Assembly (NCBI GenBank): GCA_025358925.1
Contig: JANYHT010000017.1
Coordinates: forward strand, 62,001 to 126,000
Direction: 5' to 3'
DNA: 64,000 bases
DNA from: Gemmatimonadaceae bacterium
GTDB lineage: Bacteria > Gemmatimonadota > Gemmatimonadetes > Gemmatimonadales > Gemmatimonadaceae
Below the pieces are notes generated by a model that saw nothing but the letters and a program-made list of their open reading frames with translations, was not told where the DNA came from and did not search any database. Made by a program: the position numbers and the translations under genes. Shown here piece after piece: positions 30,903-50,782 of this stretch (the stretch's first letter is position 1; the number at the start of each line of letters is the position of its first letter).

Positions 30903-32201
30903 ATGGCTGATACTGCTTATACACCGGACGGATCGGCGATTGCGCCGGCATTGACCTATGTGCGCAAGGGGTTCGGCCTTAAGGCAGAAGTCCAAGATAC
31001 GCTCGCCGCCGATTACACCGGACATCTCGTCGATTTGCTGCGCACGCTGGAGTACACACTCACGGCGGGCGACACTACCGTGCGGCTCGCAAAAGAATTT
31101 GGTTTTTGTTACGGCGTCGAGCGGGCGGTCGACTATGCGTATCAAACGCGTCGTAAATTTCCGGAGCGTCGAATTTTTCTCGCCGGTGAAATCATTCATA
31201 ATCCGCACGTGAATGCGAAATTACGCGAGATGGGTGTCGTCTTTCTCGCGGCCAGTGGCAAGGGCTTTGACTACGCGCAGGTACGAGCGGCAGATGTCGT
31301 GATTTTGCCAGCGTTTGGCGTAACCATGCAAGACTTTCAGACGCTGCGCGAACTGGGCTGCGTTGTGGTGGACACCACGTGTGGTTCCGTGCTGAATGTG
31401 TGGAAGCGCGTGGAGGTGTACGCGCGCGATGGTTTTACATCACTCATTCACGGCAAGTACTATCATGAGGAAACGCGCGCCACGGCCTCGCAAGTGGAGA
31501 AGTATCCGGGCGGCCAATACCTCGTGGTGCGCGACATGGCCGAAGCCGAATTGGTGATGCACTACATCGCGGCGCGCGCGGGAAAGATTTCAGACGAACC
31601 GGCGTTGTCACGTGACGCATTTCTGGCGCGATTTGCGAAGGGCGCATCGGATGGATTTGATCCTGATGTGCATTTGGATCGCATCGGTGTGGCGAATCAA
31701 ACCACCATGTTGGCGAGGGAGTCGCTGGCCATTGGTGCGGCGGTAGGAGCGGCCATGACGCGCGCGTACGGCGAGGCGCACCGGTCCGAGCACTTTCGCA
31801 CGTTCGATACGATCTGCAGCGCCACGCAAGACCGACAAGATGCGGTGGTTGAACTCTTGCGCGAGCCACTCGACTTGATGGTGGTGGTCGGCGGCTACAA
31901 CTCGAGCAACACGATCTCGCTTGCGGCGCTCTGCGCCGAGCAAGTGCTGACGTATCACATTGCGGATCCAGATGAGATTGATGTCGCCACTAATAGCGTG
32001 CGCTATCGCTTAATTGGGCCGCATCACACCGAGACAACACGCGAAAACTGGCTGCCAGTCGTTGGAGCGTTGCGCGTGGGGATTACGGCGGGCGCGAGTA
32101 CGCCGAACAACAAGATTGGCGACGCGGTGGCGCGCATCTTTGCGATTCGCGGTGACGATCCGTTAGTGAATCCGGGAGCGGGAACGGATGATACAGTTTG
32201 A
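30903..32201 (+). CDS. ispH: 4-hydroxy-3-methylbut-2-enyl diphosphate reductase, long form
   Basis: IspH (LytB) catalyses the last step of the MEP isoprenoid pathway, making IPP and DMAPP with a 4Fe-4S cluster. Three cysteine ligands are seen: Cys69 (FGFCYGVERA), Cys160 (VDTTCGSV) and Cys305 (TICSATQDRQ). IHNPHVNAKL, HGKYYHEET, NQTTMLARES and GGYNSSNT are conserved. At 432 aa it is about 100 residues longer than the E. coli enzyme. It has an N-terminal extension and an insert around 215-260, as in cyanobacterial and plant enzymes. The dienelactone hydrolase gene starts inside its last 14 bases. Confidence 0.93.
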   Translation: MADTAYTPDGSAIAPALTYVRKGFGLKAEVQDTLAADYTGHLVDLLRTLEYTLTAGDTTVRLAKEFGFCYGVERAVDYAYQTRRKFPERRIFLAGEIIHNPHVNAKLREMGVVFLAASGKGFDYAQVRAADVVILPAFGVTMQDFQTLRELGCVVVDTTCGSVLNVWKRVEVYARDGFTSLIHGKYYHEETRATASQVEKYPGGQYLVVRDMAEAELVMHYIAARAGKISDEPALSRDAFLARFAKGASDGFDPDVHLDRIGVANQTTMLARESLAIGAAVGAAMTRAYGEAHRSEHFRTFDTICSATQDRQDAVVELLREPLDLMVVVGGYNSSNTISLAALCAEQVLTYHIADPDEIDVATNSVRYRLIGPHHTETTRENWLPVVGALRVGITAGASTPNNKIGDAVARIFAIRGDDPLVNPGAGTDDTV

Positions 32202-32868
32202 ATCGGGTGGAGAGATGGCGAACGGGTATCTCGCGATACCGCCGTCGGGAATAGGCCCCGGTGTGCTGTTGCTGCAGGAGTGGTGGGGATTGACGGGACA
32301 CATTACATCGGTGGCGGATCGACTGGCGGCAGCTGGATTCGTGGTGCTCGCGCCGGATCTCTATCGTGGCGAATCGGCCTCGCATCCAGATGACGCAAAG
32401 CGTTTGCTGATGGCGATGGATATGCAACAAGCCGCGAGCATGTTGCGCGCGGGCGCGGCGTACCTTCTCGCTCACGCCGCCGTGGCACCGAAGCGTGTGG
32501 CGGCCGTTGGGTTTTGCTTGGGCGGACAGCTGGCGTTGTATGCGGCCACCGCGCATCCGGATGTGATCGATGCCGTGGTGGATTTCTACGGAATTTTCAG
32601 TCCCAAGATTCCTGTGGACCTTTCGGCGCTTCGCGCACGAGTGCTCGCGCACTTTGGCACACGGGATGGATCGATCTCGGTTCAGCAAGTCGAAGGATTG
32701 TTGGCGGGAATTACCGCGAGCGGCGCGACCTGTGAGGTGCATTGGTATGACGCTGGTCATGCGTTTTTCAACGACGGCCGACCGACGGCGTACGATGATC
32801 GTGCCGCGGCGTTGGCGTGGGAGCGGACGATTGAATTTTTGACTCGAACGGTCGGCGCGAGGGGATAG
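32188..32868 (+). CDS. Dienelactone hydrolase-family protein
   Basis: Protein of 226 aa with the alpha/beta fold. The triad is Cys110 (VGFCLGGQ), Asp160 (FGTRDGSI) and His191 (DAGHAFFND). A Cys nucleophile with the GFCLGG elbow is the mark of the dienelactone hydrolase family. The QEWWGL stretch near residue 31 contains the Glu that switches the Cys in this family. No aromatic ring-cleavage genes lie nearby, so the natural ester or lactone is unknown. The gene overlaps ispH by 14 bases and the nucleotidase gene starts 4 bases after its stop. Confidence 0.9.
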   Translation: MIQFESGGEMANGYLAIPPSGIGPGVLLLQEWWGLTGHITSVADRLAAAGFVVLAPDLYRGESASHPDDAKRLLMAMDMQQAASMLRAGAAYLLAHAAVAPKRVAAVGFCLGGQLALYAATAHPDVIDAVVDFYGIFSPKIPVDLSALRARVLAHFGTRDGSISVQQVEGLLAGITASGATCEVHWYDAGHAFFNDGRPTAYDDRAAALAWERTIEFLTRTVGARG

Positions 32869-32872
32869 GCGA

Positions 32873-34429
32873 TTGCGGAGCGGTGTGTGCGGCCTCGTTG
32901 CAATCAGTGCGCTCGCGCTCAGCGCGATCGGGTGCGCGCGTAGTGTTTCCCGTGCGGGTGGCGCTTCCGTTGCGCGCGGCGTCAGAAACGGCACTGTGGT
33001 GCGCATATTGCTCGTGAACGACGTATACGTGATTGATACGTTGCGCGACGGCCGTGGCGGGTTGGCGCGCGTGGCGCATCTGCGCGATTCAATTGAGCGC
33101 ACGACCAAAGCGCCGCTGCTGTTTGTTTTGGCGGGAGATTTTCTGTCGCCCAGCGTGCTGGGGAAGTGGTACGGTGGTGCGCAGATGGTGGACGGATTCA
33201 ACGCAGCGCGACTTGATGTGGCGGTGCTGGGCAATCACGAGTTTGATGGTTCGCGAACGGCGCTCCTCGCGCGCATCGGGGAATCGCATTTTCGCTGGCA
33301 GTCGGGCAACTGCAGCGAGGCCAACGGTCGCGCATTTCCGAGTGTGCGCGGGTGGGATACGCTCCGGGTGAACGGCGTGCGGGTTGGCATTTTTGGCACC
33401 ACGGTCGTGCGTGATTACCCAGCGTACGTGAAGTGTCGTGATGCCGATATGGCAACGACGGCTCTCGTGGATACGCTGCAAGGTGTCGGCGCAGAACTCA
33501 TTGTTGCGCTCACACACCGCAATATGTTTGAGGACACCGCGACGCTCATCCACGAACCGCGCGTCACGGCGATCCTCGGTGGACACGATCACAACGGTCG
33601 CCGTTTTGTCTACGACGGACGGTTGTTGATCAAGGCGATGTCGAATGCACGCACGGCGGCACTGGTCACGTTTACGCGTGTTGGTAATCGGTGGCGCGTA
33701 CAAGACACACTGTTCCGTATCGAAGCCGGTATGATCGATGAGCCAAAAACGCGCGTTGTGGTCCAGGCGTGGCGGGACACGTTGATTCGGCGTATTGGGC
33801 CAGATCGCGTGTTGGGTGTCGCGGCTGCACCCATCAATGCGATCGATTCGATATCGAAACGCGAGAGTCCGTTTGGCAACATGATTGTGGATGCGATGCG
33901 CATCGGATCGAAGTCGGACGTGGCGATGATTAATTCCGGCGCGCTACGCTTCGACGACGTGATGGCCGCAGGCCCCATCACGCGGCACATGATTGAAGGC
34001 ATATTCTTGTTTGCTGATGAAACACGCGCGTTGACGTTTTCGCTTACCGGTGCCCGGTTACGCGCATTATTAGAGCACGGGGTTGGCGTTGGCAGTCTAG
34101 CCAACGGACCGTATCCGCAAGTTAGCGGTGTCCATTTCGCATTCGATGCGCGCAAACCAACGGGCGCACGACTCGTTGGTGAGCTCACGCGCGCTGATGG
34201 CCGTGTGATCACGCCCACGGAGACCGTGCGCGTCACGTTCGTCAGCTATCCGGCGTGTCGCGCTGGCGACGGATACAACATTCCTGAAGCCGCTGCTGCG
34301 TGCAAAACGCTTGAGGCAACGCCAACCGCATGGCCACGCACGGCTGATCTCGTGCTGCAGCACCTAGAGTCGATGCAGGGGCGGATTGTTGCGCCACCCA
34401 TCGGACGTGTCACGCGCCTTGACCGATAG
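32873..34429 (+). CDS. Lipoprotein 5'-nucleotidase/metallophosphoesterase
   Basis: Protein of 518 aa. The TTG at 32873 has GGGGA seven bases upstream; a GTG at 32885 is possible. The leader ends in ALSAIGCAR, a lipobox, so the protein is anchored in the envelope. The metallophosphoesterase domain has LVNDVY, LAGDFLSPS, LGNHEFD, THRN and GGHDHNG. The first motif has Tyr where UshA-type enzymes usually have His (ND-x-H). The C-terminal nucleotidase domain includes ESPFGNMIVDAMR and NSGALRFDD. It likely hydrolyses extracytoplasmic nucleotides or UDP-sugars to recover phosphate. It is probably in one transcript from the thioesterase gene onward. Confidence 0.87.
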   Translation: MRSGVCGLVAISALALSAIGCARSVSRAGGASVARGVRNGTVVRILLVNDVYVIDTLRDGRGGLARVAHLRDSIERTTKAPLLFVLAGDFLSPSVLGKWYGGAQMVDGFNAARLDVAVLGNHEFDGSRTALLARIGESHFRWQSGNCSEANGRAFPSVRGWDTLRVNGVRVGIFGTTVVRDYPAYVKCRDADMATTALVDTLQGVGAELIVALTHRNMFEDTATLIHEPRVTAILGGHDHNGRRFVYDGRLLIKAMSNARTAALVTFTRVGNRWRVQDTLFRIEAGMIDEPKTRVVVQAWRDTLIRRIGPDRVLGVAAAPINAIDSISKRESPFGNMIVDAMRIGSKSDVAMINSGALRFDDVMAAGPITRHMIEGIFLFADETRALTFSLTGARLRALLEHGVGVGSLANGPYPQVSGVHFAFDARKPTGARLVGELTRADGRVITPTETVRVTFVSYPACRAGDGYNIPEAAAACKTLEATPTAWPRTADLVLQHLESMQGRIVAPPIGRVTRLDR

Positions 34430-34492
34430 TGCGATCGTGATCGAACGCGCAATATTGTTGTAGTCACTGTCGCCTTTTCGCCCGGAGTTCTT

Positions 34493-35293
34493 GTGTCAAG
34501 TCACGAGCCCCTTGTGCCACCTGCCGTGGACGCCATCGCGCGCATGCGACTCACTGACAAAGTGGCCATCGTAACGGGTGGCACGCGAGGCATCGGATTG
34601 GCCATCGCGACGACGCTCGCGCGTGCGGGCGCGAACGTGGTCATTTCCAGTCGCAAGGTGGAGCATGTTGACGCCGTGGTGAAGTTATTGCGAGACGAGG
34701 GGCTGACTGTAGTTGGTATTCCCGCGCACATGGGTAAAGCCACCGATGCGCACGAACTTGCGGCGCGAACCGTCGAGCACTTTGATGGCATCGACATCAT
34801 TGTCAACAACGCGGCGACCAATCCGATCTTCGGTCCGCTGCAGCAGACCAGCGATGATGCATTCGAGAAGATCTTTGGCGTCAATGTGAAGGGCCCACTC
34901 GAACTGTGTCGGGCGGCACACTCGGTGATGGCAGAACGGGGTGGCGGATCGATCGTGAATATCGCGAGCATCGGCGGAGTGTCGCCCGAAGCTGGGCTAG
35001 GCTTGTACAGTGTGAGTAAAGCTGCGCTCATTTCGCTCACGAAAGTAATGGCGCAGGAGTGGGGCGCTGACGGCATTCGTGCGAACGCGATCTGCCCTGG
35101 GCTCATAAAGACGAAATTCAGTCAGGCGCTGTGGCAAGACGCGCACATCGCGAATCAAGTACTCGGGCATCAACCTATTCGGCGCATTGGTGCCCCGGAC
35201 GACGTCGCAGGGCTCGCACTCTTTCTTGCTTCGGATGCGGCGTCGTACTGCACTGGTGGTGTGTACATGGTGGACGGAGGGTATCTCACATGA
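34493..35293 (+). CDS. Short-chain dehydrogenase/reductase
   Basis: Protein of 266 aa from a GTG start with GGAG five bases upstream. A classical SDR: GGTRGIG nucleotide site, NNAATNP, IVNIAS with the catalytic Ser, and Y-S-V-S-K (Tyr/Lys). It ends CTGGVYMVDGGYLT, as in FabG-like enzymes. Its stop overlaps the acyl-CoA dehydrogenase start (ATGA). By analogy with the lva pathway of Pseudomonas, an SDR next to an ACAD and an APH-type kinase could reduce a 4-keto acyl-CoA to the 4-hydroxy form (inference). Related proteins in animals are peroxisomal DHRS4-like enzymes. Confidence 0.9.
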   Translation: MSSHEPLVPPAVDAIARMRLTDKVAIVTGGTRGIGLAIATTLARAGANVVISSRKVEHVDAVVKLLRDEGLTVVGIPAHMGKATDAHELAARTVEHFDGIDIIVNNAATNPIFGPLQQTSDDAFEKIFGVNVKGPLELCRAAHSVMAERGGGSIVNIASIGGVSPEAGLGLYSVSKAALISLTKVMAQEWGADGIRANAICPGLIKTKFSQALWQDAHIANQVLGHQPIRRIGAPDDVAGLALFLASDAASYCTGGVYMVDGGYLT

Positions 35294-36525
35294 CCAGCGG
35301 ATCCATAGCGTCAGCCGATCTCGACGCACTGCTCGTGACCGCACGCACGTTTGTTCGCGACGAGCTCGTGCCGCTCGAACCAACACTCCTGCACGGTTCG
35401 TGGGCGAGTATCGAACCCGCGTTAGCGAAACTCCGCGTACGCGCGCGCGCGCTTGGTCTGTGGTCACCCTTCTTGCCGAAATCGCTTGGCGGACTTGACC
35501 TACCGCTCGACGCGTACGCACGTCTCTCCGAAGTGCTTGGTTGGACGCCGTTTGGTCCGTACGTCTGCAATTGCCAAGCACCCGACGTGGGCAATATGGA
35601 ACTGCTTCTACAATTTGGTACCTCCGATCAAAAGTCGCGATTTCTCGACCCACTCACACGGGGCGATATTCGCAGCTGTTTCGCGATGACGGAGCCTCAG
35701 CATGCCGGTTCCAATCCGGTCTGGATGTCTACGCGTGCAGTACGCGATGGCGATGAGTGGGTGATTTCGGGACACAAATGGTTCACGTCAAGCGCTGATG
35801 GCGCCGCGTTTGTCATTGTGATGGCCGTGACCGACCCCGACGCACAGGCGCCGCATGCACGAGCCAGTCAAATCCTAGTTCCACTTCCCATACCGGGATA
35901 TTCGCTCGTACGCAATATCTCCGTGATGGGTGACGTCGGCGGTGGGTGGGCGAGCCATGCTGAAGTGCGTTTCGATCACGTACGCGTGCCGGTCACCAAT
36001 CTGCTCGGACCGCAAGGACACGGATTTGCGTTGGCGCAAGAACGACTCGGACCAGGACGCATCCATCACTGCATGCGATGGATCGGTATCTGCGAGCGGG
36101 CCTTCGACTTGATGTGTCGACGCGCCGTTGCGCGTGAGCTCGCACCTGGCGATCCGTTAGCCAACAAACAGGCGGTGCAGTTCTGGATCGCAGAATCACG
36201 TATCGAAATTCATGCATCGCGTTTGATGGTGCTTGATGCGGCCGCGCGCATCGCGAACGAAGGACAAGAAGCGGCGCGCGAGCAGATTGCGTACATCAAA
36301 GTTTTTGTGGCGAATACATTGCAACGCGTACTAGATCGCGCAATTCAGGCGCACGGCGCGCTTGGGATGACCGACGACACACCGCTGGCGTGGTGGTATC
36401 GTCACGAGCGCGCGGCACGCATTTATGACGGTGCCGACGAAGTGCATAAAACGGTCATCGCGCGGCGTGCGCTCAAGCCATATTTCAACGCGCAGGTGCG
36501 GGCCGCGCACGCGCCGCCAGCGTGA
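35290..36525 (+). CDS. ACAD10/11-like acyl-CoA dehydrogenase
   Basis: Protein of 411 aa with the acyl-CoA dehydrogenase fold. FAMTEPQHAGSNP and ISGHKWFTSSADG form the FAD site. QAHGALGMTDDTPLAWWYRHERAARIYDGADEVH closes the domain (seen as QAHGALGMTDD and RIYDGADEVHKT). The YDGADEVH end replaces the YEGTSxIQ of ordinary fatty acyl dehydrogenases. As I recall, that ending is typical of ACAD10/ACAD11, which act on 4-phosphoacyl-CoA. The start overlaps the SDR stop and the end overlaps the kinase start (GTGA), so the three are translationally coupled. The order and company support work on 4-hydroxy acids rather than plain beta-oxidation. Confidence 0.88.
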   Translation: MTSGSIASADLDALLVTARTFVRDELVPLEPTLLHGSWASIEPALAKLRVRARALGLWSPFLPKSLGGLDLPLDAYARLSEVLGWTPFGPYVCNCQAPDVGNMELLLQFGTSDQKSRFLDPLTRGDIRSCFAMTEPQHAGSNPVWMSTRAVRDGDEWVISGHKWFTSSADGAAFVIVMAVTDPDAQAPHARASQILVPLPIPGYSLVRNISVMGDVGGGWASHAEVRFDHVRVPVTNLLGPQGHGFALAQERLGPGRIHHCMRWIGICERAFDLMCRRAVARELAPGDPLANKQAVQFWIAESRIEIHASRLMVLDAAARIANEGQEAAREQIAYIKVFVANTLQRVLDRAIQAHGALGMTDDTPLAWWYRHERAARIYDGADEVHKTVIARRALKPYFNAQVRAAHAPPA

Positions 36526-37610
36526 ACGACACGATTGCGGTGCGCGATGGCGAGCAAGTCGACACCATCGCACTCCGTCGATGGCTGGCGCTCGTGCGGC
36601 CCGATTTGGTGCCGGCTGGTGGGGCCGTCCTAGTCACACAATTCCCAAGCGGCTTTTCGAATCTGACGTATCTCGTGCGCATTGAGCACGAAGACGGGGT
36701 TCGGTCGTACGTATTGCGGCGCCCTCCGTACGGAGTGAAGCCAGGTATCGCACACGATGTCGGACGCGAGCACGATATCCTCGCCGCGCTCTATCCGCTT
36801 GGTGTTCCAGTACCACAACCCATTACGCGCTGCGACGACGTTGCGGTGATCGGTGCGCCCTTCTATCTGATGGAGCACGTCAACGGGTTAATTCTGCGCG
36901 GAAAGCCGCCAGTCGAACTGGCGGCGAATGTGGAGGAGATGCCCGTTATTCTCGCCGCGCTCTCGCGGACGTTTGTGTCCACGCTGGTACAACTTCACTC
37001 GGTGGATATTTCGCGCCCACCGCTTTCGTCACTCGGCAAGCCCGACGGCTACGCGCGTCGGCAAGTGGCGGGTTGGACTCGACGTTGGCACGCGGCGCGC
37101 ACGCAAGAAGTTCCGGACATTACGATGGTAGCACAGTGGCTTGATGCGCATTGTCCGCCGGAGCATGCGGCATGTCTGGTACACAATGATTACAAATTCG
37201 ACAACCTCGTGCTCGATCAAAACGATCTCACGCGCGTGCTCGCGATTCTCGACTGGGAGATGGCCACCATTGGCGATCCGATGATGGACCTCGGCACCAG
37301 CCTCGCGTACTGGGTTGAAGCCGGTGACGATCCAGTCTTTCGTTCGCTCGGACTCGGTGTCACGGCGCTGCCCGGCATGGCGACGCGCGCCGAACTCGTA
37401 CACGCGTACGCTGCCGCCAGTGGCCGAGACGTCAGCGACGCGCCGTTTTATTATGCGTTTGGACTTTTCAAAGTTGCGGTTATTGCGCAACAGATTTTCG
37501 CACGCTTTGAACAGGGCCTCACGCGCGATGTTCGATTTGGTGCATTGGGCAACGTGGTGCAGGCCCTTGGCAACGCAGCTGCTACGGTGATCGACCGTGG
37601 ATCGATCTAG
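36522..37610 (+). CDS. APH-family acyl-CoA kinase (ACAD10/11 N-domain or LvaA type)
   Basis: Protein of 362 aa from a GTG start. The aminoglycoside-phosphotransferase fold is clear: SGFSNLTYLV, VLRRPP (ATP Lys/Arg region), LVHNDYKFDNLVL (catalytic H-x-D...N) and ILDWEMATIGDPMMDLG (metal-binding Asp). Full APH-like proteins of this type next to an ACAD are not drug-resistance enzymes. In animals the same domain is fused to ACAD10/11, and in Pseudomonas putida LvaA phosphorylates 4-hydroxyvaleryl-CoA. Here the two functions are separate but coupled genes. The gene ends 16 bases from the convergent plug-domain gene. Confidence 0.88.
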   Translation: MNDTIAVRDGEQVDTIALRRWLALVRPDLVPAGGAVLVTQFPSGFSNLTYLVRIEHEDGVRSYVLRRPPYGVKPGIAHDVGREHDILAALYPLGVPVPQPITRCDDVAVIGAPFYLMEHVNGLILRGKPPVELAANVEEMPVILAALSRTFVSTLVQLHSVDISRPPLSSLGKPDGYARRQVAGWTRRWHAARTQEVPDITMVAQWLDAHCPPEHAACLVHNDYKFDNLVLDQNDLTRVLAILDWEMATIGDPMMDLGTSLAYWVEAGDDPVFRSLGLGVTALPGMATRAELVHAYAAASGRDVSDAPFYYAFGLFKVAVIAQQIFARFEQGLTRDVRFGALGNVVQALGNAAATVIDRGSI

Positions 37611-37626
37611 TCGGCCGACAACATGG

Positions 37627-38358
37627 CTACATCGTCGTGATGGAGATCGCGCCACACGCCGGATTGGCGCGCACCGACAATAGTTCTGGCGCCATCGTAA
37701 CTCCGTCGCGATACACCACCATCAGTTTGATCGACCGCGTTGACACGTTATTGAGCGGGTAACCCGGAAGGGCCAGACCATCAAGAAAAAGCGTTGGCGC
37801 ACAGCGGCCGCGTGTGCTGAGCACCGACGCGCCGGATCCACTGCCGATAATCACAAATCCAGAGGTGTTTTGCAGTAGATCCGTTGTGAACTGCGCGTGC
37901 CGTTCGTCGATGTCACGTTCGGTGGTGACTGTCCCAAAGCGCGATGCGTCCACGGCGGATGCAAAGCGGCGAAGATCGCGCTCCCACGAAGCGTCCGCAC
38001 GCCGTTGCACGCGCACCGTATCCAAGCGCTGTCCGATGTGATCGAGCGTAAACTGCACCGTATCGGTTGGCGTAAAACGAATGAGGTCCGCGAGCGGCAA
38101 AAACCCGATGCGCCGCGCGCCAATATCGAGAAGGCCAACCGGTACGTTCGCTATACGGAATCGACCATCGGCATCGGAAAGCACCGCTTGATCACGACCA
38201 CGCACGCGGACTTCGGCGCCTTCCAGCGGCCGACCCAAGTCGTCTTTCACGAAACCGATCAGCATCGCTCCTTGCGCCTGTCCGAGCGCAGGAACAACCG
38301 AACCAGCGGCAAACAGCATAGCGACGAGATGTGTGCGAACTGCGCGTGGCGTGTTCAT
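37627..38358 (-). CDS. Exported carboxypeptidase-regulatory plus plug-domain protein
   Basis: Protein of 243 aa with a signal peptide (MNTPRAVRTHLVAMLFAAGSVVPALGQ). Residues 30-110 are a carboxypeptidase-regulatory-like beta sandwich (IGFVKDDLGRPLEGAEVRVRGRDQAVLSDADGRF in two parts). Residues 135-243 resemble a TonB-receptor plug (TTDLLQNTSGFVI, GRCAPTLFLDGLAL, YRDGVTMAPELLS). There is no beta barrel, although such plugs normally sit inside one. It has the shape of N-terminal parts of SusC-like receptors, and the frame is intact. The thiolase gene ends 25 bases upstream of its start. Confidence 0.75.
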   Translation of the reverse strand: MNTPRAVRTHLVAMLFAAGSVVPALGQAQGAMLIGFVKDDLGRPLEGAEVRVRGRDQAVLSDADGRFRIANVPVGLLDIGARRIGFLPLADLIRFTPTDTVQFTLDHIGQRLDTVRVQRRADASWERDLRRFASAVDASRFGTVTTERDIDERHAQFTTDLLQNTSGFVIIGSGSGASVLSTRGRCAPTLFLDGLALPGYPLNNVSTRSIKLMVVYRDGVTMAPELLSVRANPACGAISITTM

Positions 38359-38383
38359 GGCATGCTCCGTGGTGGACGACGTA

Positions 38384-39553
38384 TTAGCCCTTGTACACCT
38401 CAAAAATGCCAGCGGCTCCCATGCCTCCGCCAATGCACATTGTAACTAGCCCGTAACCACCACCACGACGCTGCAACTCATGCACCAATTGCGTGGTCAG
38501 TTTCGCACCCGTCGCCCCAAGCGGGTGTCCAAGCGCGGTGGCGCCGCCGTTCACGTTTGTGATGGACGGATCGATACCGAGTTCTTGAATAACGGCCAGT
38601 GCTTGCGCGGCGAATGCCTCGTTCAGTTCGATGAGCGTGATATCGCCGAGCGAAAGCCCGGCACGCTTGAGCGCCTTTGGTACGGCCTTGATTGGACCAA
38701 TGCCCATGATGTCGGGCGAAACGCCTGCGGTGGCAAAGCTCACGAAGCGAGCAAGTGGTTTGAGTCCCAGTTCCTTGGCCCGGTCCGCACTCATCACGAG
38801 TACCGCCGCAGCACCATCGGAATACGGACTCGCATTGCCTGCAGTGACAGAACCTGTCGCCATGAACGCCGGTCGCAGTTTGGCGAGCCCTTCGACAGTG
38901 GTATCTGCACGCGGGCATTCATCGGTGTCAAACATCACCTCCGTCACGATTTTTTCTGCGCCCATCCACGCGAACCGTTGCGTAGCGATCGGAATGATCT
39001 CTGGACGAAATACACCGGCCGCGATTGCTTTCACAGCTTTTTGCTGACTCTCATACGCAAATTGATCTTGCGCAGTGCGCGAGATATTCCATTGCCTCGC
39101 CACACGTTCGGCGGTGAAGCCCATGCCGATGTAGCTCTCCGTCATGTCTGGCGATAGTCGCGCATTGTAACCCGACATAGGCACCTGGCTCATCAACTCC
39201 GTACCTCCTGCGAGCACGGTGTCACCCATCCCGGCGATGATGGCCTGCGCCGCGTAGGCAACCGATTGGAGTCCGGACGAACAAAAACGATTAATGGTGG
39301 CGGCCGACGTTTCGACCGGCAACCCGCCGCGCAGCCACGCGAGCCGCGCGTGATTGAGACCTTGCGACGCTTCAGGCATCGCGCAGCCCCACTGCACATC
39401 TTCGACGATCGCCGGGTCGATGCCCGCGCGATCAATAGCTGCCTTCATCACAATGGATGTGACATCCACCGGATGTGTGCCAGCGAGCGAACCGTCTGCC
39501 TTACCACGGGCGACGGCGCTGCGCACGGCACTGACGATCACGACTTCGGTCAT
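38384..39553 (-). CDS. fadA: Acetyl-CoA acyltransferase (thiolase), FadA type
   Basis: Protein of 389 aa. Thiolase catalyses the last step of beta-oxidation, cleaving 3-ketoacyl-CoA. Cys91 in NRFCSSGLQSV is the nucleophile. GGATALGHPLGATGA holds the active-site His and CIGGGMGAAG the C-terminal Cys. NEAFAAQALAV is conserved. The ATG at 39553 (MTEVVIVSAV) is chosen because thiolases begin right there. It lies 34 bases downstream of the fadN-like gene on the same strand, the order seen in the Bacillus subtilis fadN-fadA operon. Confidence 0.93.
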   Translation of the reverse strand: MTEVVIVSAVRSAVARGKADGSLAGTHPVDVTSIVMKAAIDRAGIDPAIVEDVQWGCAMPEASQGLNHARLAWLRGGLPVETSAATINRFCSSGLQSVAYAAQAIIAGMGDTVLAGGTELMSQVPMSGYNARLSPDMTESYIGMGFTAERVARQWNISRTAQDQFAYESQQKAVKAIAAGVFRPEIIPIATQRFAWMGAEKIVTEVMFDTDECPRADTTVEGLAKLRPAFMATGSVTAGNASPYSDGAAAVLVMSADRAKELGLKPLARFVSFATAGVSPDIMGIGPIKAVPKALKRAGLSLGDITLIELNEAFAAQALAVIQELGIDPSITNVNGGATALGHPLGATGAKLTTQLVHELQRRGGGYGLVTMCIGGGMGAAGIFEVYKG

Positions 39554-39587
39554 CTGCGAATGCTCCATGCAGCGCAATGAGGGAGGC

Positions 39588-41897
39588 TCAATTGCGCAGC
39601 GGCTTGCCGGTCTTGAGAGTGTACGCGATGCGGTCTTGTGTCTCCTTCGTGCCGAGAAGACTCAGGAACTGTTCGCGCTCGAGGTCCAACAGGTCCTGTT
39701 CCGTCACATCGCGCGGTGTCCCATCACCGCCGCACAACACATAACCAATGGCGCGACCCACACGCACATCATGCGCTGATGCTTGTCCCGCTTCTTTCGC
39801 TGCCCACAACGCGTACTCTAAGTTGCCTAGGCCGTCGCGGCCTAACGCACGCACTGTGCGTTCGATAGGTGGCAAGTAGCCCGGTGCGAGGTCCAGTACG
39901 CGCGCCTTCGCGTCGGCGAGTTGATGATCACGATTCATGCTGATGCGATCGGTGCTGCGCAAATATCCAAGTGCGCGCGCTTCGTGCGCACTCGTGCTGG
40001 TGGTGGCAAATGCGATGATTTTGAATGCTCGTTTGACGGCAGCGAAGAGATCAACCTCTTCAAAGTTTTGTAACTCGGCGGTGAAGCGCATCAGAAGCTC
40101 TTTCGTGCCGCCGCCACCCGGCAACAAGCCAACACCGGCCTCCACGAGGCCCATGTATGTCTCCGCGTACGCTTGCACACCATCACCGTGTAGCGTGAAC
40201 TCCGCGCCACCGCCCAGCGTCATTCCCGCCGGTGCAACAACCACTGGAAACGGTGCACGTCGAATGGACATGACGCTGTCTTGAAATGCTTTACAGGACG
40301 CCGCAATGTCATCCCACGCACCGGCCGCCATCGCGAATGATACCTGCGAAAGATCCGCGCCAACACTGAATGCGCGCGCATCCTCGTTGCCAATCACGAG
40401 GCCAGCAAACCCGCTCTTCTCGACTTTTCGCAAGGCGTTCGCGAGACCTGTGAGCACGCCTTCGCCCAGGCTATTCATCTTCGAGCGGAACTCGAAACAC
40501 GCGACACCATCACCCAAGTCAATCAGGCGCGACAGCCCGTTGTCTTCGAGAATGCGTCCACTCTTGGCCAAGCTTGCGAGCGCGAGACGACCCGGAATAC
40601 TTGGCACGGGCTCGTACGTCCCGTCAAATGTGAGATACTCGCCGTCGCGATAAAAGCTGCCGTGCGCTTGTTCTAGGAACGCCGGCACCGCGAGCGCACG
40701 TGCTTTGAATTCTTTCGCGAGCCAATCGAGGCCGAGCGCGTCCATGACTTGAAACGGCCCCGCCTCCCACCCGTAGCCCCACTCCATCGCGCGATCAATC
40801 GCGACGATATCGTATGCAAGTGTTGCGGCAACTGTGAGCGTGTAATGGGCAGCGTCAACGAGATGATCACGCAAGAACGCACCTTGCGCAGCGGGCGTTT
40901 GAATTGCCGCAGGCAAGCGTTGCGCGATTGGGAGGCGAATGGCTTGACCTAGATCTCCGCCCTCCAGTCGCTGTTGCTTCGCGTATGATTTTGTTTTCCA
41001 ATCGTACGTGAGCGTGCCGTCTTTCGCCTTCGTATAAAAGCCGCCTGCCGTTTTGTCGCCGAGTTTTCCTTGTGCCACTAACTCAAGCACCCAGTCGGGC
41101 AACATCATATCTTCACCAGTCGCGCTGCCGATGCCCTTAGTCACGTGGGCCAGCACATCCAATCCGGAGAGATCGGCGGTGCGCATGGTCGCACTGCGCG
41201 CGCGACCAATGAGAGAACCGGTCAGTCCATCGACTTCGTCGATCGTGAGTCCGTGCTCCATCATGCGACGCATCGTGCCGACCATACCGTAGACGCCGAG
41301 TCGGTTCGCGATAAAGCCTGGTACATCCTTCGCGATCACAATGCCTTTGCCAAGCGTACGTTCGGCAAATTCGCGCATCGCGCCAATGACGGCATGATCC
41401 GTCTCTCGCGTGGGGATGATTTCCAACAAATGCATGTAGCGCGGCGGATTGAAGAAGTGCGTGCCGAGAAAACGACGACGAAACTTTTCGCTCCGACCTT
41501 CGAGTAACGTCGACATCGGGATGCCTGACGTGTTCGACGAGATGATAGCCGTGGGCTTCATCAATGCTTCGATACGTGCAAAGAGCTGTTGCTTCGGACC
41601 CGCGAGTTCGATGATGGCTTCGCAAATCCAATCGCACTCGGAGAGCATCGCGAGATGATCTTCGGTGTTGCCCGTGCGAACGCGGGCAACGGCGGCGGCT
41701 TCCATAAACGACACGGGCTTCGACTTGCTGGCTTTCAGCAATCCGTTGTTGGCGGGGGCACTACGATTGGGCGACTTGGGATCGGTGTCGCCCGGGATGT
41801 CGAGCAACACGACGCGGCAGCCAGCCGACGCGGCAAGGGCGGCAATCCCGCTCCCCATCGCGCCAGCGCCCACCACGCCGACAGTCGTCACGCGCAT
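39588..41897 (-). CDS. fadN: 3-hydroxyacyl-CoA dehydrogenase/enoyl-CoA hydratase, FadN type
   Basis: Protein of 769 aa. The N-terminal part is the NAD-dependent 3-hydroxyacyl-CoA dehydrogenase (VGVVGAGAMGSGIAALAASAG; SSNTSG; GTHFFNPP; KDVPGFIANR). The C-terminal part is an enoyl-CoA hydratase-like domain (FEFRSKMNSLG, GNEDARAFSVGADL, GMTLGGGAEFTLHGD, ETYMGLVEAGVGLLPGGGGT). Dehydrogenase first and hydratase last is the FadN order, the reverse of E. coli FadB. AGGAG lies six bases before the ATG. It is transcribed with the thiolase and would turn the enoyl-CoA made by the facing ACAD operon into acetyl-CoA products. Confidence 0.92.
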   Translation of the reverse strand: MRVTTVGVVGAGAMGSGIAALAASAGCRVVLLDIPGDTDPKSPNRSAPANNGLLKASKSKPVSFMEAAAVARVRTGNTEDHLAMLSECDWICEAIIELAGPKQQLFARIEALMKPTAIISSNTSGIPMSTLLEGRSEKFRRRFLGTHFFNPPRYMHLLEIIPTRETDHAVIGAMREFAERTLGKGIVIAKDVPGFIANRLGVYGMVGTMRRMMEHGLTIDEVDGLTGSLIGRARSATMRTADLSGLDVLAHVTKGIGSATGEDMMLPDWVLELVAQGKLGDKTAGGFYTKAKDGTLTYDWKTKSYAKQQRLEGGDLGQAIRLPIAQRLPAAIQTPAAQGAFLRDHLVDAAHYTLTVAATLAYDIVAIDRAMEWGYGWEAGPFQVMDALGLDWLAKEFKARALAVPAFLEQAHGSFYRDGEYLTFDGTYEPVPSIPGRLALASLAKSGRILEDNGLSRLIDLGDGVACFEFRSKMNSLGEGVLTGLANALRKVEKSGFAGLVIGNEDARAFSVGADLSQVSFAMAAGAWDDIAASCKAFQDSVMSIRRAPFPVVVAPAGMTLGGGAEFTLHGDGVQAYAETYMGLVEAGVGLLPGGGGTKELLMRFTAELQNFEEVDLFAAVKRAFKIIAFATTSTSAHEARALGYLRSTDRISMNRDHQLADAKARVLDLAPGYLPPIERTVRALGRDGLGNLEYALWAAKEAGQASAHDVRVGRAIGYVLCGGDGTPRDVTEQDLLDLEREQFLSLLGTKETQDRIAYTLKTGKPLRN

Positions 41898-46408: not shown

Positions 46409-47005
46409 CTAGTCGGCGTCTGGCATCCACTGCGCGAGACGCTCACGCAGCATACGCAGCGCGCGACTCATATTGGCTTCAACCGCTTTTACTGACACGT
46501 TCAGCGCCTCGGCGATTTCGCTGTAGCGCATGTTCCGTTCACGGCTCATGACAAACACTTCGCGGGTGCGCGGTGGGAGATCAGCAATCGCCTTCGTGAG
46601 TGCGGCGGCAAGTTCGCCAGCATCGAGAGCCGCATCGGCTCGTTCTGCGGGCTCAGACAGCGCTTCCACGTACACCGCGCTCTTTTTTTGCACTTGTAAG
46701 TGGCGCAGATGGTTCAGTGCGCGATTGCGAACGGCCTGCATGAGATAACCGGCAACGCTGCTCTCGGGTGCCAGCGTTTCGCGACGACGCCAGAATTCAA
46801 GAAACACGTCCTGCGATAGCTCCTCGGCGATTCCGGGATCGTGCAGCACTCGATTGGCCGAGCGAACGACAGGTTCGTACCATTGACGAAAGATTTCGTC
46901 GAACGCCGCGTGATCGCCATCGCGGAGTCGGGCGAGTTGGTCGTGATCGTTCACGAAGCGGTTTGAGGTGGCGGCAAGCGCGGAGGAGTGAGAAGGGTCG
47001 GGCAC
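46409..47005 (-). CDS. ECF sigma factor of the FecI-like signalling set
   Basis: Protein of 198 aa. Region 2: DHAAFDEIFRQWYEPVVRSANRV then IAEELSQDVFLEFWRRR. Region 4: LPPRTREVFVMSRERNMRYSEIAEALNVSVKAVEANMSRALRML. This region 4 is the type found beside FecR and TonB receptors. No in-frame ATG exists between 47095 and the conserved part. The GTG at 47005 is chosen; the GTG at 46954 is another option. It is divergent from fecR, whereas fecI-fecR pairs usually run the same way. The shared gap holds TATACT at 47025-47030. Confidence 0.88.
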   Translation of the reverse strand: MPDPSHSSALAATSNRFVNDHDQLARLRDGDHAAFDEIFRQWYEPVVRSANRVLHDPGIAEELSQDVFLEFWRRRETLAPESSVAGYLMQAVRNRALNHLRHLQVQKKSAVYVEALSEPAERADAALDAGELAAALTKAIADLPPRTREVFVMSRERNMRYSEIAEALNVSVKAVEANMSRALRMLRERLAQWMPDAD

Positions 47006-47072
47006 CGGACCCGCCGATACGAGGTATACTACAACACATGTCGCCCCCGCCGCGTGGGGGTAGGGTGGTGCG

Positions 47073-48164
47073 ATGTTTCCGTGTTCCCAGAGCATGCAGA
47101 ACGAATCTCAGCCGCAGCGAACTAGCAACGACAACGCCGATTGGGACGCGATTGGCCGCTTCGTCGCGGGAGAGAGCGATCCTGCCGAAGCGTTGATCGT
47201 CGAGGCGTGGCTGATGCATCATTCGTTGGACGCGGAAGTGGTGCGGCTCGTACAGGCGCGTGCGGCCCGCTTTGCCGCGCAGGATTACGTTCGCGTCGAT
47301 ATCGATGGCGCCCTATCTCGGGTGCGCGGCAGGATAGCCGATGAGACGCCGCGCCTGACTGTGGTGCGAGGCGGTGTAGTGGGACACTCGTCCGCGAAGG
47401 CGAGCTGGCTGCGTTCGTGGCGCAGCGCGGCGGTTGTGGCGGCGGCCGGTGTGGCCATGTATGTGGGCGTGACACGATGGGAAGGGCGCCGCGCGATGGT
47501 CGATGCGACAGTGTTCGCCACGAACGTCGGAGCGCGTGATTCTCTCACGTTATCGGATGGTACGCACGTTATTCTTGCACCCGGATCACGATTAACTGTT
47601 GCGGCGGGCTACGGTGCGTCCACGCGCGAAGTCACGCTGGACGGCGCGGCGTTCTTCGACGTACAGCACGATGCGCGGCATCCGTTTATGGTGCGCGCGC
47701 GGGGCACACAAATTCGCGATATTGGTACCGCATTTTCGGTGAATACTGATGCAAGTGGCGGTGTCGCGGTTGCTGTCATGCACGGTATCGTGGCGCTCCG
47801 TGATTCGACGGCGGGCGCGGCATCGGCGGTCGAACTGCACGCAGGTGATCGCGGCGTGGTGCGCGGCGGCGCGATTGCGGTTGCGCGCGGTATCGTAACG
47901 GTCGATGACATTGCTTGGACGCGCGGACATCTGACCTATCGTGATGCTCCGTTGACGGAGGTGCAAGCGGATCTCCAACGCTGGTACGGAATCGATCTAC
48001 GCGTAATCGACGCGACGTTGTTGCAGCGCACGGTGAACGGCACCAACCCCGGTGATTCGGCGGCCGCGACCGTAAAGTGGATCGCACTTATCCTGGGCGC
48101 CGATGTCGTTCAACGCGGCGATACCGTCTTTCTTCAACTCGCGGGACACGGCACAACGCCCTGA
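47073..48164 (+). CDS. FecR-family anti-sigma factor
   Basis: Protein of 363 aa from the ATG at 47073 (AGGGTGG seven to eight bases upstream). The ATG at 47094 (MQNESQPQR) is a good alternative. The N-terminal cytoplasmic part (DWDAIGRFVAGESDPAEALIVEAWL) fits sigma binding. A membrane helix lies at about 118-134 (AAVVAAAGVAMYVGV). The periplasmic FecR domain follows: LSDGTHVILAPGSRLTV and EVTLDGAAFFDVQHDARHPFMV. The C-terminal part (DAPLTEVQADLQRWYGIDLRV) contacts the receptor in known systems. It pairs with the receptor gene that begins 5 bases later. Confidence 0.92.
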   Translation: MFPCSQSMQNESQPQRTSNDNADWDAIGRFVAGESDPAEALIVEAWLMHHSLDAEVVRLVQARAARFAAQDYVRVDIDGALSRVRGRIADETPRLTVVRGGVVGHSSAKASWLRSWRSAAVVAAAGVAMYVGVTRWEGRRAMVDATVFATNVGARDSLTLSDGTHVILAPGSRLTVAAGYGASTREVTLDGAAFFDVQHDARHPFMVRARGTQIRDIGTAFSVNTDASGGVAVAVMHGIVALRDSTAGAASAVELHAGDRGVVRGGAIAVARGIVTVDDIAWTRGHLTYRDAPLTEVQADLQRWYGIDLRVIDATLLQRTVNGTNPGDSAAATVKWIALILGADVVQRGDTVFLQLAGHGTTP

Positions 48165-48169
48165 CGCGC

Positions 48170-50782
48170 ATGCGGGTAACCAGTGTGGTGCGGCGGTGCG
48201 TCGTCGCGGGCGCGATCACATTGTTGATCGTGCCCGCGGCGTCTGCGCGTGCGGATGATCCGGTGTGCGCGGCGCGCGTGTCGATTCCGGATCGCGCATC
48301 CCTGTGGGGTTCTCCGCTTGACCGCATTGTCTCTGTACGGCTCACCGATTCGCCATTACGTGAAGCGCTCGAACGCGTTGCTGCAGATGCGAAAGTTGAA
48401 CTCTCGTATAGCAACGAACTGCTGCCGCGCGACAAACGTATCTGTCTCGCTCTCGATCATGTGCCGATTGGTGCGGTGCTCGAAACATTACTTGCCGGAA
48501 CGACGCTGCGACCGGTGGTCATGGGTACGTCGCAGATTGTGCTTGCGCCATCGCGGAGCACTGCGGGTGTTGACATCGCACCGAATACGCGCCGCGCGAG
48601 CGTGCTGGATCGGGTTGTTGTCACTGGCACGCCGGACGGCGCATCGCAGCGCGGATCGCCATTTGCTCTCGACGTCATTGATGGCGCGACGTTGGCCAAG
48701 CAACGTGCCACGTCGCTCGGTGAAGCGCTCGATCTTGCGGTGCCCGGAATGTGGTCGTGGGCGACGAGTGCTGGTTCACTCTCGGCGCGGTATGGCAGTA
48801 TTCGTGGTGCGAGTTCGTTTGGTGTGAGCGCGCCAAAGATTTATCTCGATGGCATCGAAGTCGCGAACCCGTTGCTTATCACGCAACTCGATCCGTCTCG
48901 TGTCGAGCGCGTCGAAGTGATTCGGGGTCCGCAGGGAGCGGCGCTGTACGGCGCCGACGCGATCAGCGGTGTGGTGAACATCCTCACACGTCACGACGGC
49001 TCAGCCACTGGCGCCCCGCTGCTGCAGCTGTCGACGAATGCCGGACTGTCGTCGACGGCATACGCGCCGCGTGATGCGTTTGTGCAAGAGCATGCGCTGT
49101 CGCTGCGCGGCGGCACCGGTGATCGCACCTATGGTGTAGGCGTCACGCTCGGCACCGTTGGCGCGTATGTGCCGGGGGCATCCGAACGGCGTGTGCTCGC
49201 CGACGCCGATCTGCGGATGGTTCGTGCCAGCGCCGTGTTCACCGGTACCGCACGGCTGTCGTTGCAACGGGCAAATGCGAGCACGAATCTTATCTTCGGT
49301 GGGCTCGCACCGACGCTCTCCGTCGTGGCACACAACGATGAAGGACGTGACGTGCGGCAAATTGCTGCATCCGTGGCCGATTCGGCCCTGGGCCATCCGC
49401 CGTCAGACACGACGCGGTTTGCTGGCGATAGCGCGACAGGACAGGACATGTCTCAGTACACGGTTGGCGGAACCGTGTCGATGATGCCGTCGCTTCGATG
49501 GACCAACACAGTCATTGCGGGCGTCGACGGCTATCGCTTGCATGGATTTTCGAACGCGGGTTTGCCAACGCCTGCGTCATCGTTCACCGACTATGCGAAC
49601 GCGCAGGGCGGCGCTGATCGCGGTACGTTGCGGCTGCGATCCGTAGGCCGATTTGATGTCGCGAATCGCACTACAATGAATGTCACCTTCGCTGCTGAGC
49701 AGACGCTGACGAAGCAAGTCGACGACAACACCTTCGTTGCGGGAGCGGCGCGTGGCGCGCCGACCACCATCGCGCCGCCTGTACACGCTCCAACTTCCAC
49801 GTCGCTGCGCACAACGTGGACCAATAGTGTTGGTGTATCGGCGCAAGCGAACGTGGCGTGGCATGATGCAGTGTTTTTCGTCGCCGGCGGTCGTGTGGAG
49901 CGGAACACGGGCAGCACGCCCAACGCACAGCTCTCGTTGCTACCCATGCTTGGGGTTGCCTATGTTCACGATGTCAATGGCGTGGTGCTCAAATTGCGCA
50001 CCGCGTATGGCACCGGCATTCGTCCCGCGAACAGTTTGACGCGCGGCACCACATGGATGGCGCGTGCCGCGAACAGCACCACCGCTACGCTCCAACCAGA
50101 AACACAGTCGGGTACTGAATTGGGTGGCGACGTGCTTTTTGGTCGGGCGTTGTCGCTGCACGTGACGCGTTTCGATCAACGTGCATCTGGACTCATTCAA
50201 CCAGTTGCGTACACGAGCACGACGCCGACGGGCAACGGTCGTTGGGCGCGCACGGTCGCGTACACGTTGGAAAATGTTGGCGCGATCGACAACCACGGAT
50301 GGGAATTGCAAGGCGGGACGCAATTCAATCGACTCGCGCTGGCTGGCGCCGTCACGTTGGTCGAGAGTCGCGTGTCGCGTGTCGCTCGCGGATATGGCGG
50401 GGACTTGCGTGTCGGCGATCGCATGCTGGATGTGCCGGCGCGTACGGCGAGTCTAAACGCAACGTGGAACGCGGCGCGTTGGTCACTCACGACCGGCGTC
50501 ACACGCGCTGAAGACTGGGTCAGCTATGATCGCATTGCGATAGGTCGTGCGCTCGCTGAACAGGGCCATGAGCGCGATATCGGGGGGGCACGTCTGCGAG
50601 ATTTCTGGACCACGTACGGTGGCGTTACGCGCGTGCGTGCGAACGTGAGCTACCGGGTGCTTGGCGATCTCTCGGCGCTACTGGACGGCGAGAATTTACT
50701 GAATGTGCAGCGCGGATCGCCAGACAACGGGACGGTCACTGCGGGGCGGACGTTGACGTTCGGGTTGCGTACGACGTTTTAG
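48170..50782 (+). CDS. TonB-dependent receptor with STN signalling domain
   Basis: Protein of 870 aa with a signal peptide (to SARADD). Residues about 40-125 are a secretin/TonB short N-terminal (STN) domain (LTDSPLREALERVAADAKVELSYSN, VPIGAVLETLLAGTTLRP). That domain contacts the FecR protein in ligand-signalling receptors. A TonB plug follows at about 145-270 (ALDLAVPGMWSW, PKIYLDGIEVANP, VERVEVIRGPQGAALYGADAISGVVNIL in parts), then a 22-stranded-type barrel to the C-terminal Phe. No SusD-like gene follows. The cognate sigma and anti-sigma genes lie just upstream. The ligand is unknown. Confidence 0.9.
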   Translation: MRVTSVVRRCVVAGAITLLIVPAASARADDPVCAARVSIPDRASLWGSPLDRIVSVRLTDSPLREALERVAADAKVELSYSNELLPRDKRICLALDHVPIGAVLETLLAGTTLRPVVMGTSQIVLAPSRSTAGVDIAPNTRRASVLDRVVVTGTPDGASQRGSPFALDVIDGATLAKQRATSLGEALDLAVPGMWSWATSAGSLSARYGSIRGASSFGVSAPKIYLDGIEVANPLLITQLDPSRVERVEVIRGPQGAALYGADAISGVVNILTRHDGSATGAPLLQLSTNAGLSSTAYAPRDAFVQEHALSLRGGTGDRTYGVGVTLGTVGAYVPGASERRVLADADLRMVRASAVFTGTARLSLQRANASTNLIFGGLAPTLSVVAHNDEGRDVRQIAASVADSALGHPPSDTTRFAGDSATGQDMSQYTVGGTVSMMPSLRWTNTVIAGVDGYRLHGFSNAGLPTPASSFTDYANAQGGADRGTLRLRSVGRFDVANRTTMNVTFAAEQTLTKQVDDNTFVAGAARGAPTTIAPPVHAPTSTSLRTTWTNSVGVSAQANVAWHDAVFFVAGGRVERNTGSTPNAQLSLLPMLGVAYVHDVNGVVLKLRTAYGTGIRPANSLTRGTTWMARAANSTTATLQPETQSGTELGGDVLFGRALSLHVTRFDQRASGLIQPVAYTSTTPTGNGRWARTVAYTLENVGAIDNHGWELQGGTQFNRLALAGAVTLVESRVSRVARGYGGDLRVGDRMLDVPARTASLNATWNAARWSLTTGVTRAEDWVSYDRIAIGRALAEQGHERDIGGARLRDFWTTYGGVTRVRANVSYRVLGDLSALLDGENLLNVQRGSPDNGTVTAGRTLTFGLRTTF

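Follow-up and report, generated by a model that had tools for sequence, protein, structure and literature searches.

A split, LvaB-free ACAD10/11-type operon of Gemmatimonadota as a probable route of 4-hydroxyacyl-CoAs into beta-oxidation

What does a kinase of the APH fold do in one operon with an acyl-CoA dehydrogenase (ACAD) homologue and an SDR? The question is raised by three plus-strand genes (34493-37610) of the window, the 64,000-nucleotide stretch analysed here, which covers positions 62001-126000 of one contig of a Gemmatimonadaceae genome (4.0 Mb assembly, 72 contigs). The closest relatives with names are MAGs of Gemmatimonas and Gemmatimonadetes, and the genome is probably that of a Gemmatimonas relative. 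The 4-base overlap reported at each junction by the initial annotation was read again from the sequence (ATGA and GTGA, Table 1); the exact overlap recurs in some relatives, and short gaps take its place in others. A promoter and terminator scan of 32000-38500 gave counts not above those of shuffled sequences. From the coupling of the genes, the diagnostic residues, the joint occurrence of kinase and ACAD and the neighbourhood, we conclude that the trio is very probably a catabolic module through which 4-hydroxyacyl-CoAs enter beta-oxidation. Such a module would let the cell burn fatty acids blocked by a carbon-4 hydroxyl, via the phosphorylate-and-eliminate route of ACAD10/ACAD11 and the Pseudomonas levulinate operon.

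Table 1. Features of the trio and its neighbours (positions in the window)
Feature	Position	Strand	Basis or remark
Dienelactone-hydrolase-family protein	32188-32868	+	PF01738; two genes upstream of the trio
DHRS4-type SDR, 266 aa, putative NADPH-dependent 4-oxoacyl-CoA / carbonyl reductase	34493-35293	+	Pfam PF13561/PF00106 (adh_short_C2), PDB search, tree
ATGA overlap, SDR stop / ACAD start	35290-35293	+	Sequence
ACAD10/11-LvaC-type ACAD homologue, 411 aa, putative 4-phosphoacyl-CoA eliminase	35290-36525	+	Pfam Acyl-CoA_dh_N/M/1, PDB search, residues
GTGA overlap, ACAD stop / kinase start	36522-36525	+	Sequence
APH-fold kinase, 362 aa, putative 4-hydroxyacyl-CoA kinase	36522-37610	+	PF01636, PDB search, aligned residues
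Small CarboxypepD_reg/Plug gene	37627-38433	-	Pfam; between APH and FadA
FadA-type thiolase, general beta-oxidation neighbour	38384-39577	-	In place also in trio-less congeners
FadN-type 3-hydroxyacyl-CoA dehydrogenase/enoyl-CoA hydratase, general beta-oxidation neighbour	39588-41897	-	Pfam; in place also in trio-less congeners

The ACAD has its best PDB match in mouse/human ACAD11 (289 bits), followed by 4hr3, a putative acyl-CoA dehydrogenase (286 bits), the next different group reaching 169 bits, and it is 44% identical to mouse ACAD11 and 38% identical to LvaC. The signature motif RRHCMRD and the residues R252, R257, H260, C261, M262 and R263 are present. Alignment places R252, H260 and R263 at R626, H634 and R637 of mouse ACAD11, P90 at the helix-breaking P463 of human ACAD11, and the catalytic D380 at mouse D753, an Asp where ordinary ACADs carry Glu. 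In mouse ACAD11, R626, H634, R637 and the catalytic D753 are required for conversion of 4-phosphoacyl-CoA to 2-enoyl-CoA, and plain acyl-CoAs gave no activity with ACAD10/11 in the same assay (Rashan et al. 2025, PMC12440821). Among the six other PF00441 proteins of the genome, the five paralogues alignable at these positions have the catalytic Glu and lack the HCMR motif. Every one of the 56 ACADs linked to a kinase among 60 Gemmatimonadota loci has the R-H-R-D set, and so have 65 out of 65 signature ACADs adjoining kinases in 80 named loci from many phyla, collected with the kinase alone as seed; in the other 15 of these loci, some on short contigs, no ACAD was matched up to 4.5 kb from the kinase. 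The diagnostic residues, the nearest solved relatives and the co-occurrence with the kinase thus strongly support assignment of this putative enzyme to the ACAD10/11-LvaC kind.

The kinase retrieved 9o56 first in the PDB search (277 bits, 41% identity) and the ACAD11 kinase domain second (169 bits; 34% identity to the mouse domain), and is 32% identical to LvaA over 203 residues only. In a comparison that left aside R86 of the published kinase numbering, its D223 and N228 aligned with the catalytic Asp/Asn of mouse ACAD11 (D220 and N225) and its R180 with the CoA-side Arg (R176). It is the only match of such type in the genome (E<=0.001), and its assignment to the ACAD10/11-LvaA kind, as a putative 4-hydroxyacyl-CoA kinase, is strongly supported. 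Pfam-level annotation alone, APH being a broad superfamily, would also allow an ordinary acyl-CoA dehydrogenase operon next to an unrelated APH-fold kinase, for example one phosphorylating a drug or another small molecule. However, antibiotic kinases match the window kinase at about 25 bits or less, against the 277 and 169 bits given above, the ACAD has D380 instead of the usual Glu together with the R/HCMR motif, and the occurrence of kinase and ACAD is linked over a set of 298 genomes, which makes that reading extremely improbable. The reading as a drug-resistance kinase was rejected in view of the weak PDB matches, and APH-fold kinases of this kind, which databases call aminoglycoside phosphotransferases, most likely serve metabolism rather than resistance.

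The kinase is present in 79 of the 298 Gemmatimonadota genomes and the ACAD in 76, every ACAD genome being at the same time a kinase genome (76 of 76 and 76 of 79; Fisher 5e-68, in a test that ignores kinship). In 56 of the 60 loci from this phylum no more than 3 kb separates the ACAD from the kinase, and the arrangement is therefore not due to chance. In the genus itself, kinase and ACAD are both present in 12 genomes and both missing from four; a G. phototrophica MAG (L166) is a carrier of the trio. In these four congeners IspH adjoins FadA-FadN with no trio gene between them (a 5'-nucleotidase gene accompanies IspH in one), so that the trio is there or missing as a block, and FadN-FadA is independent of it. 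Elsewhere the kinase and the signature ACAD are also found in reversed order, on opposite strands or apart (L104, L105, L106, L227 and others), and the pair persists.

The initial annotation had proposed that the trio carries out the pathway of the Pseudomonas lva operon (lvaABCDE), the chemistry of which was described by Rand et al. 2017, as relayed in PMC6692424 and PMC11342911. Both systems have an APH kinase, an ACAD with RRHCMRD and an SDR in one operon, and the route expected for both runs from 4-oxo- through 4-hydroxy- and 4-phospho- to enoyl-CoA. On the other hand, the window operon is devoid of LvaB and LvaE, and its SDR belongs to another clade than LvaD. The lva reference came from a P. 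aeruginosa plasmid whose annotation names lvaB, and its LvaB was confirmed as DUF6285; no LvaB was detected in the source genome or in any of the 298 Gemmatimonadota genomes, Caulobacter and Thermus serving as positive controls. Window-type kinases, if working, would therefore do so without LvaB, like ACAD10/11. A genome-wide search with PF00501 placed all the AMP-dependent ligases it found on contigs other than that of the window, in agreement with the earlier remark that the window has no acyl-CoA ligase and that activation must be encoded elsewhere. The lva analogy was thus right as to mechanism, the kinase and ACAD being of the proposed kind by residues, relatives and co-occurrence, and wrong as to membership, and a strict lva operon was rejected because there is no LvaB, because the SDR has closer kin than LvaD and because the locus does not encode LvaE.

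Levulinate (4-oxopentanoate) catabolism proper, with the SDR acting as LvaD, the kinase as LvaA, the ACAD as LvaC and the ligase supplied from elsewhere, could still be argued from the three enzyme classes common to the trio and lva, from an LvaE-like ligase (46%) on another contig and from the P. citronellolis cluster, which also has no LvaB (PMC6692424). This is unlikely, since LvaB (DUF6285) is found in 0/298 genomes, the kinase is closer to ACAD11 than to LvaA (179 vs 88 bits), the SDR groups with DHRS4 and not with LvaD, and the ligase match is weak because such ligases are promiscuous. A literature search on Gemmatimonas and levulinate yielded nothing useful. The operon is well supported as a putative LvaB-free system of the ACAD10/11 type, with levulinate and longer 4-hydroxy acids as candidate substrates between which the sequence does not discriminate.

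In the pathway that we propose, a ligase encoded elsewhere would make the CoA thioester, and the DHRS4-type SDR may then reduce 4-oxoacyl-CoA to 4-hydroxyacyl-CoA with NADPH. This is the weakest step, and context together with homology to DHRS4 and LvaD gives the SDR about an even chance of having this part in the pathway. By homology to ACAD10/11 and LvaA, the APH-fold kinase would phosphorylate the 4-hydroxyl with ATP. As in ACAD11, D380 of the ACAD-fold enzyme is predicted to take the alpha proton of the 4-phosphoacyl-CoA while R252, H260 and R263 hold the phosphate; departure of the phosphate and return of the hydride from FAD would leave 2-enoyl-CoA with no net oxidation. The breakdown could then be completed by the usual enzymes of beta-oxidation, including FadN and FadA.

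Instead of supplying the 4-hydroxy compound, the SDR might invert its configuration, oxidising the S-4-hydroxy form and re-reducing it to the R form preferred by the kinase, alone or with a second SDR. The ACAD10 kinase does prefer the R form about fourfold (PMC11342911), and many clusters elsewhere have two different SDRs, but the window operon has a single one and stereo-inversion seems quite unlikely.

The SDR, tentatively assigned here to reduction of 4-oxoacyl-CoA, has DHRS4 (3o4r) as its best PDB match (222 bits, against 160 bits for the next non-DHRS4 family) and is 33% identical to LvaD; the Arg residues of its Gly motif (TGGTRGIG) and, following the second strand, of SSRK suggest a preference for NADP(H). 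In a tree of 72 SDRs, mammalian DHRS4 falls within a clade of SDRs adjoining ACAD-APH pairs (support 97/84) from Gemmatimonadota, Bacteroidota, Chloroflexota and Planctomycetota, a clade that includes the window SDR and in which the predominance of linked SDRs is partly by construction, the sampling having been seeded by the kinase. LvaD and the SDR paralogues of the genome itself lie outside the clade, the exact placement of LvaD being unsure given limited outgroup sampling and long outgroup branches. DHRS4-type SDRs adjoin kinase-ACAD pairs in five phyla (window; L264-L270, L273, L192, L174, L200). When, as an independent test, plasmids were searched with the SDR alone, an APH kinase or a signature ACAD adjoined it in 8 of the 12 loci examined (Azospirillum, Croceicoccus, Bosea, Haematobacter, Azoarcus, Caballeronia, Sulfitobacter and Burkholderia), as opposed to 0/8 with a control SDR of the same genome (Fisher 0.005, with matches that are not independent, one locus being common to several Rhizobiaceae). 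Among the 37 Gemmatimonadota genomes with a DHRS4-type SDR, 34 have the kinase, the SDR being on another contig in several. Many pairs in other genera are devoid of a DHRS4-type SDR, some genera having another SDR or none found, and this SDR is therefore a frequent but not an obligatory partner.

DHRS4 is an NADPH-dependent peroxisomal carbonyl/retinal reductase; it provides the closest solved relatives of the window SDR and shares one clade with the linked bacterial SDRs. The window protein, of putative activity, differs from DHRS4 in being bacterial and in standing in an operon with the kinase-ACAD pair. Mammalian ACAD11 is also peroxisomal (PMC12440821). This common location, together with the DHRS4-type SDRs standing beside the pair, leads to the prediction that DHRS4 serves 4-hydroxyacid catabolism. 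It is possible, though we advance it tentatively and consider it doubtful, that reductases of the DHRS4 type work specifically with the ACAD10/11-type pair, making or stereo-correcting 4-hydroxyacyl-CoA, and that human DHRS4 would then act in 4-hydroxy/4-oxo acid catabolism. If so, the bacterial operon would be a surviving record of a DHRS4-ACAD11 link. The recurrent SDR offers a concrete and testable guess as to what human DHRS4 does physiologically and where ACAD11 may obtain 4-hydroxy acids. The literature consulted documents no 4-oxoacyl-CoA reduction by a DHRS4-type enzyme, and papers naming DHRS4 and ACAD11 together appear, from the few mentions and from titles and abstracts, to be proteome or expression studies.

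The convergent fadN-fadA pair had been proposed initially as the finishing part of the pathway set. FadA-FadN is near the kinase in 8/8 testable loci of the genus, convergent with the trio, and in 17/30 loci of other genera of the family, and FadN is the only full-length copy of its type in the genome, all of which could point to dedicated finishing enzymes. Nevertheless, the two genes are on the opposite strand to the trio, keep their position unchanged in the four trio-less congeneric genomes and are near the kinase in only one of the 14 loci outside the family that had enough flank. FadN-FadA as a part of the module was thus rejected and such a dedicated role is very unlikely: the pair is ordinary resident beta-oxidation, linked to the trio by position rather than specifically. 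The small CarboxypepD_reg and Plug protein encoded between the kinase and FadA, absent from the initial annotation, is too short for a TonB-receptor barrel.

The chemistry of ACAD10/11 and of the Lva pathway is already known; the additions made here concern the group of organisms, the division into separate proteins and the partner of the DHRS4 type. The ACAD10/11 chemistry has been worked out in mice and in Pseudomonas, and Gemmatimonadota very probably have it as well, as a split, LvaB-free and patchily distributed module. Compared with mammalian ACAD10/ACAD11 (PMC12440821, PMC11342911), kinase and ACAD are homologous throughout and all phosphate-handling and catalytic residues are kept, whereas the animal domains are fused, kinase first, and here there are two separate translation-coupled proteins, ACAD then kinase, with an additional SDR gene and with neither HAD domain nor organelle. 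Burkholderia orthologues of the pair substituted for the ACAD10 domains in vitro (PMC11342911). The proteobacterial APH-SDR-ACAD-histidine phosphatase clusters (Burkholderia, Caballeronia, Azoarcus and Azospirillum) have the same SDR, kinase and signature ACAD adjoining, in another gene order and with an extra phosphatase. In other loci (L090, L109, L110, L264, L268 and L269) the pair is often joined by a histidine phosphatase, perhaps a repair enzyme for stray 4-phospho compounds; there is none in the window operon.

In one Gemmatimonadota family (L090, 3473-7013) the pair is preceded by two ATPases and a binding protein with the look of a branched-chain-amino-acid-type ABC transporter, possibly an importer of the substrate. 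The dienelactone-hydrolase-family gene keeps its upstream position in most loci of the genus; it may be speculated that its product opens gamma-lactones to 4-hydroxy acids, its membership in the module being conjectural. Further along the window, at 46409-50782, genes for an ECF-like sigma factor, a FecR-domain protein and a Plug-domain protein follow one another, an arrangement resembling a surface-signalling system with its TonB-type receptor.
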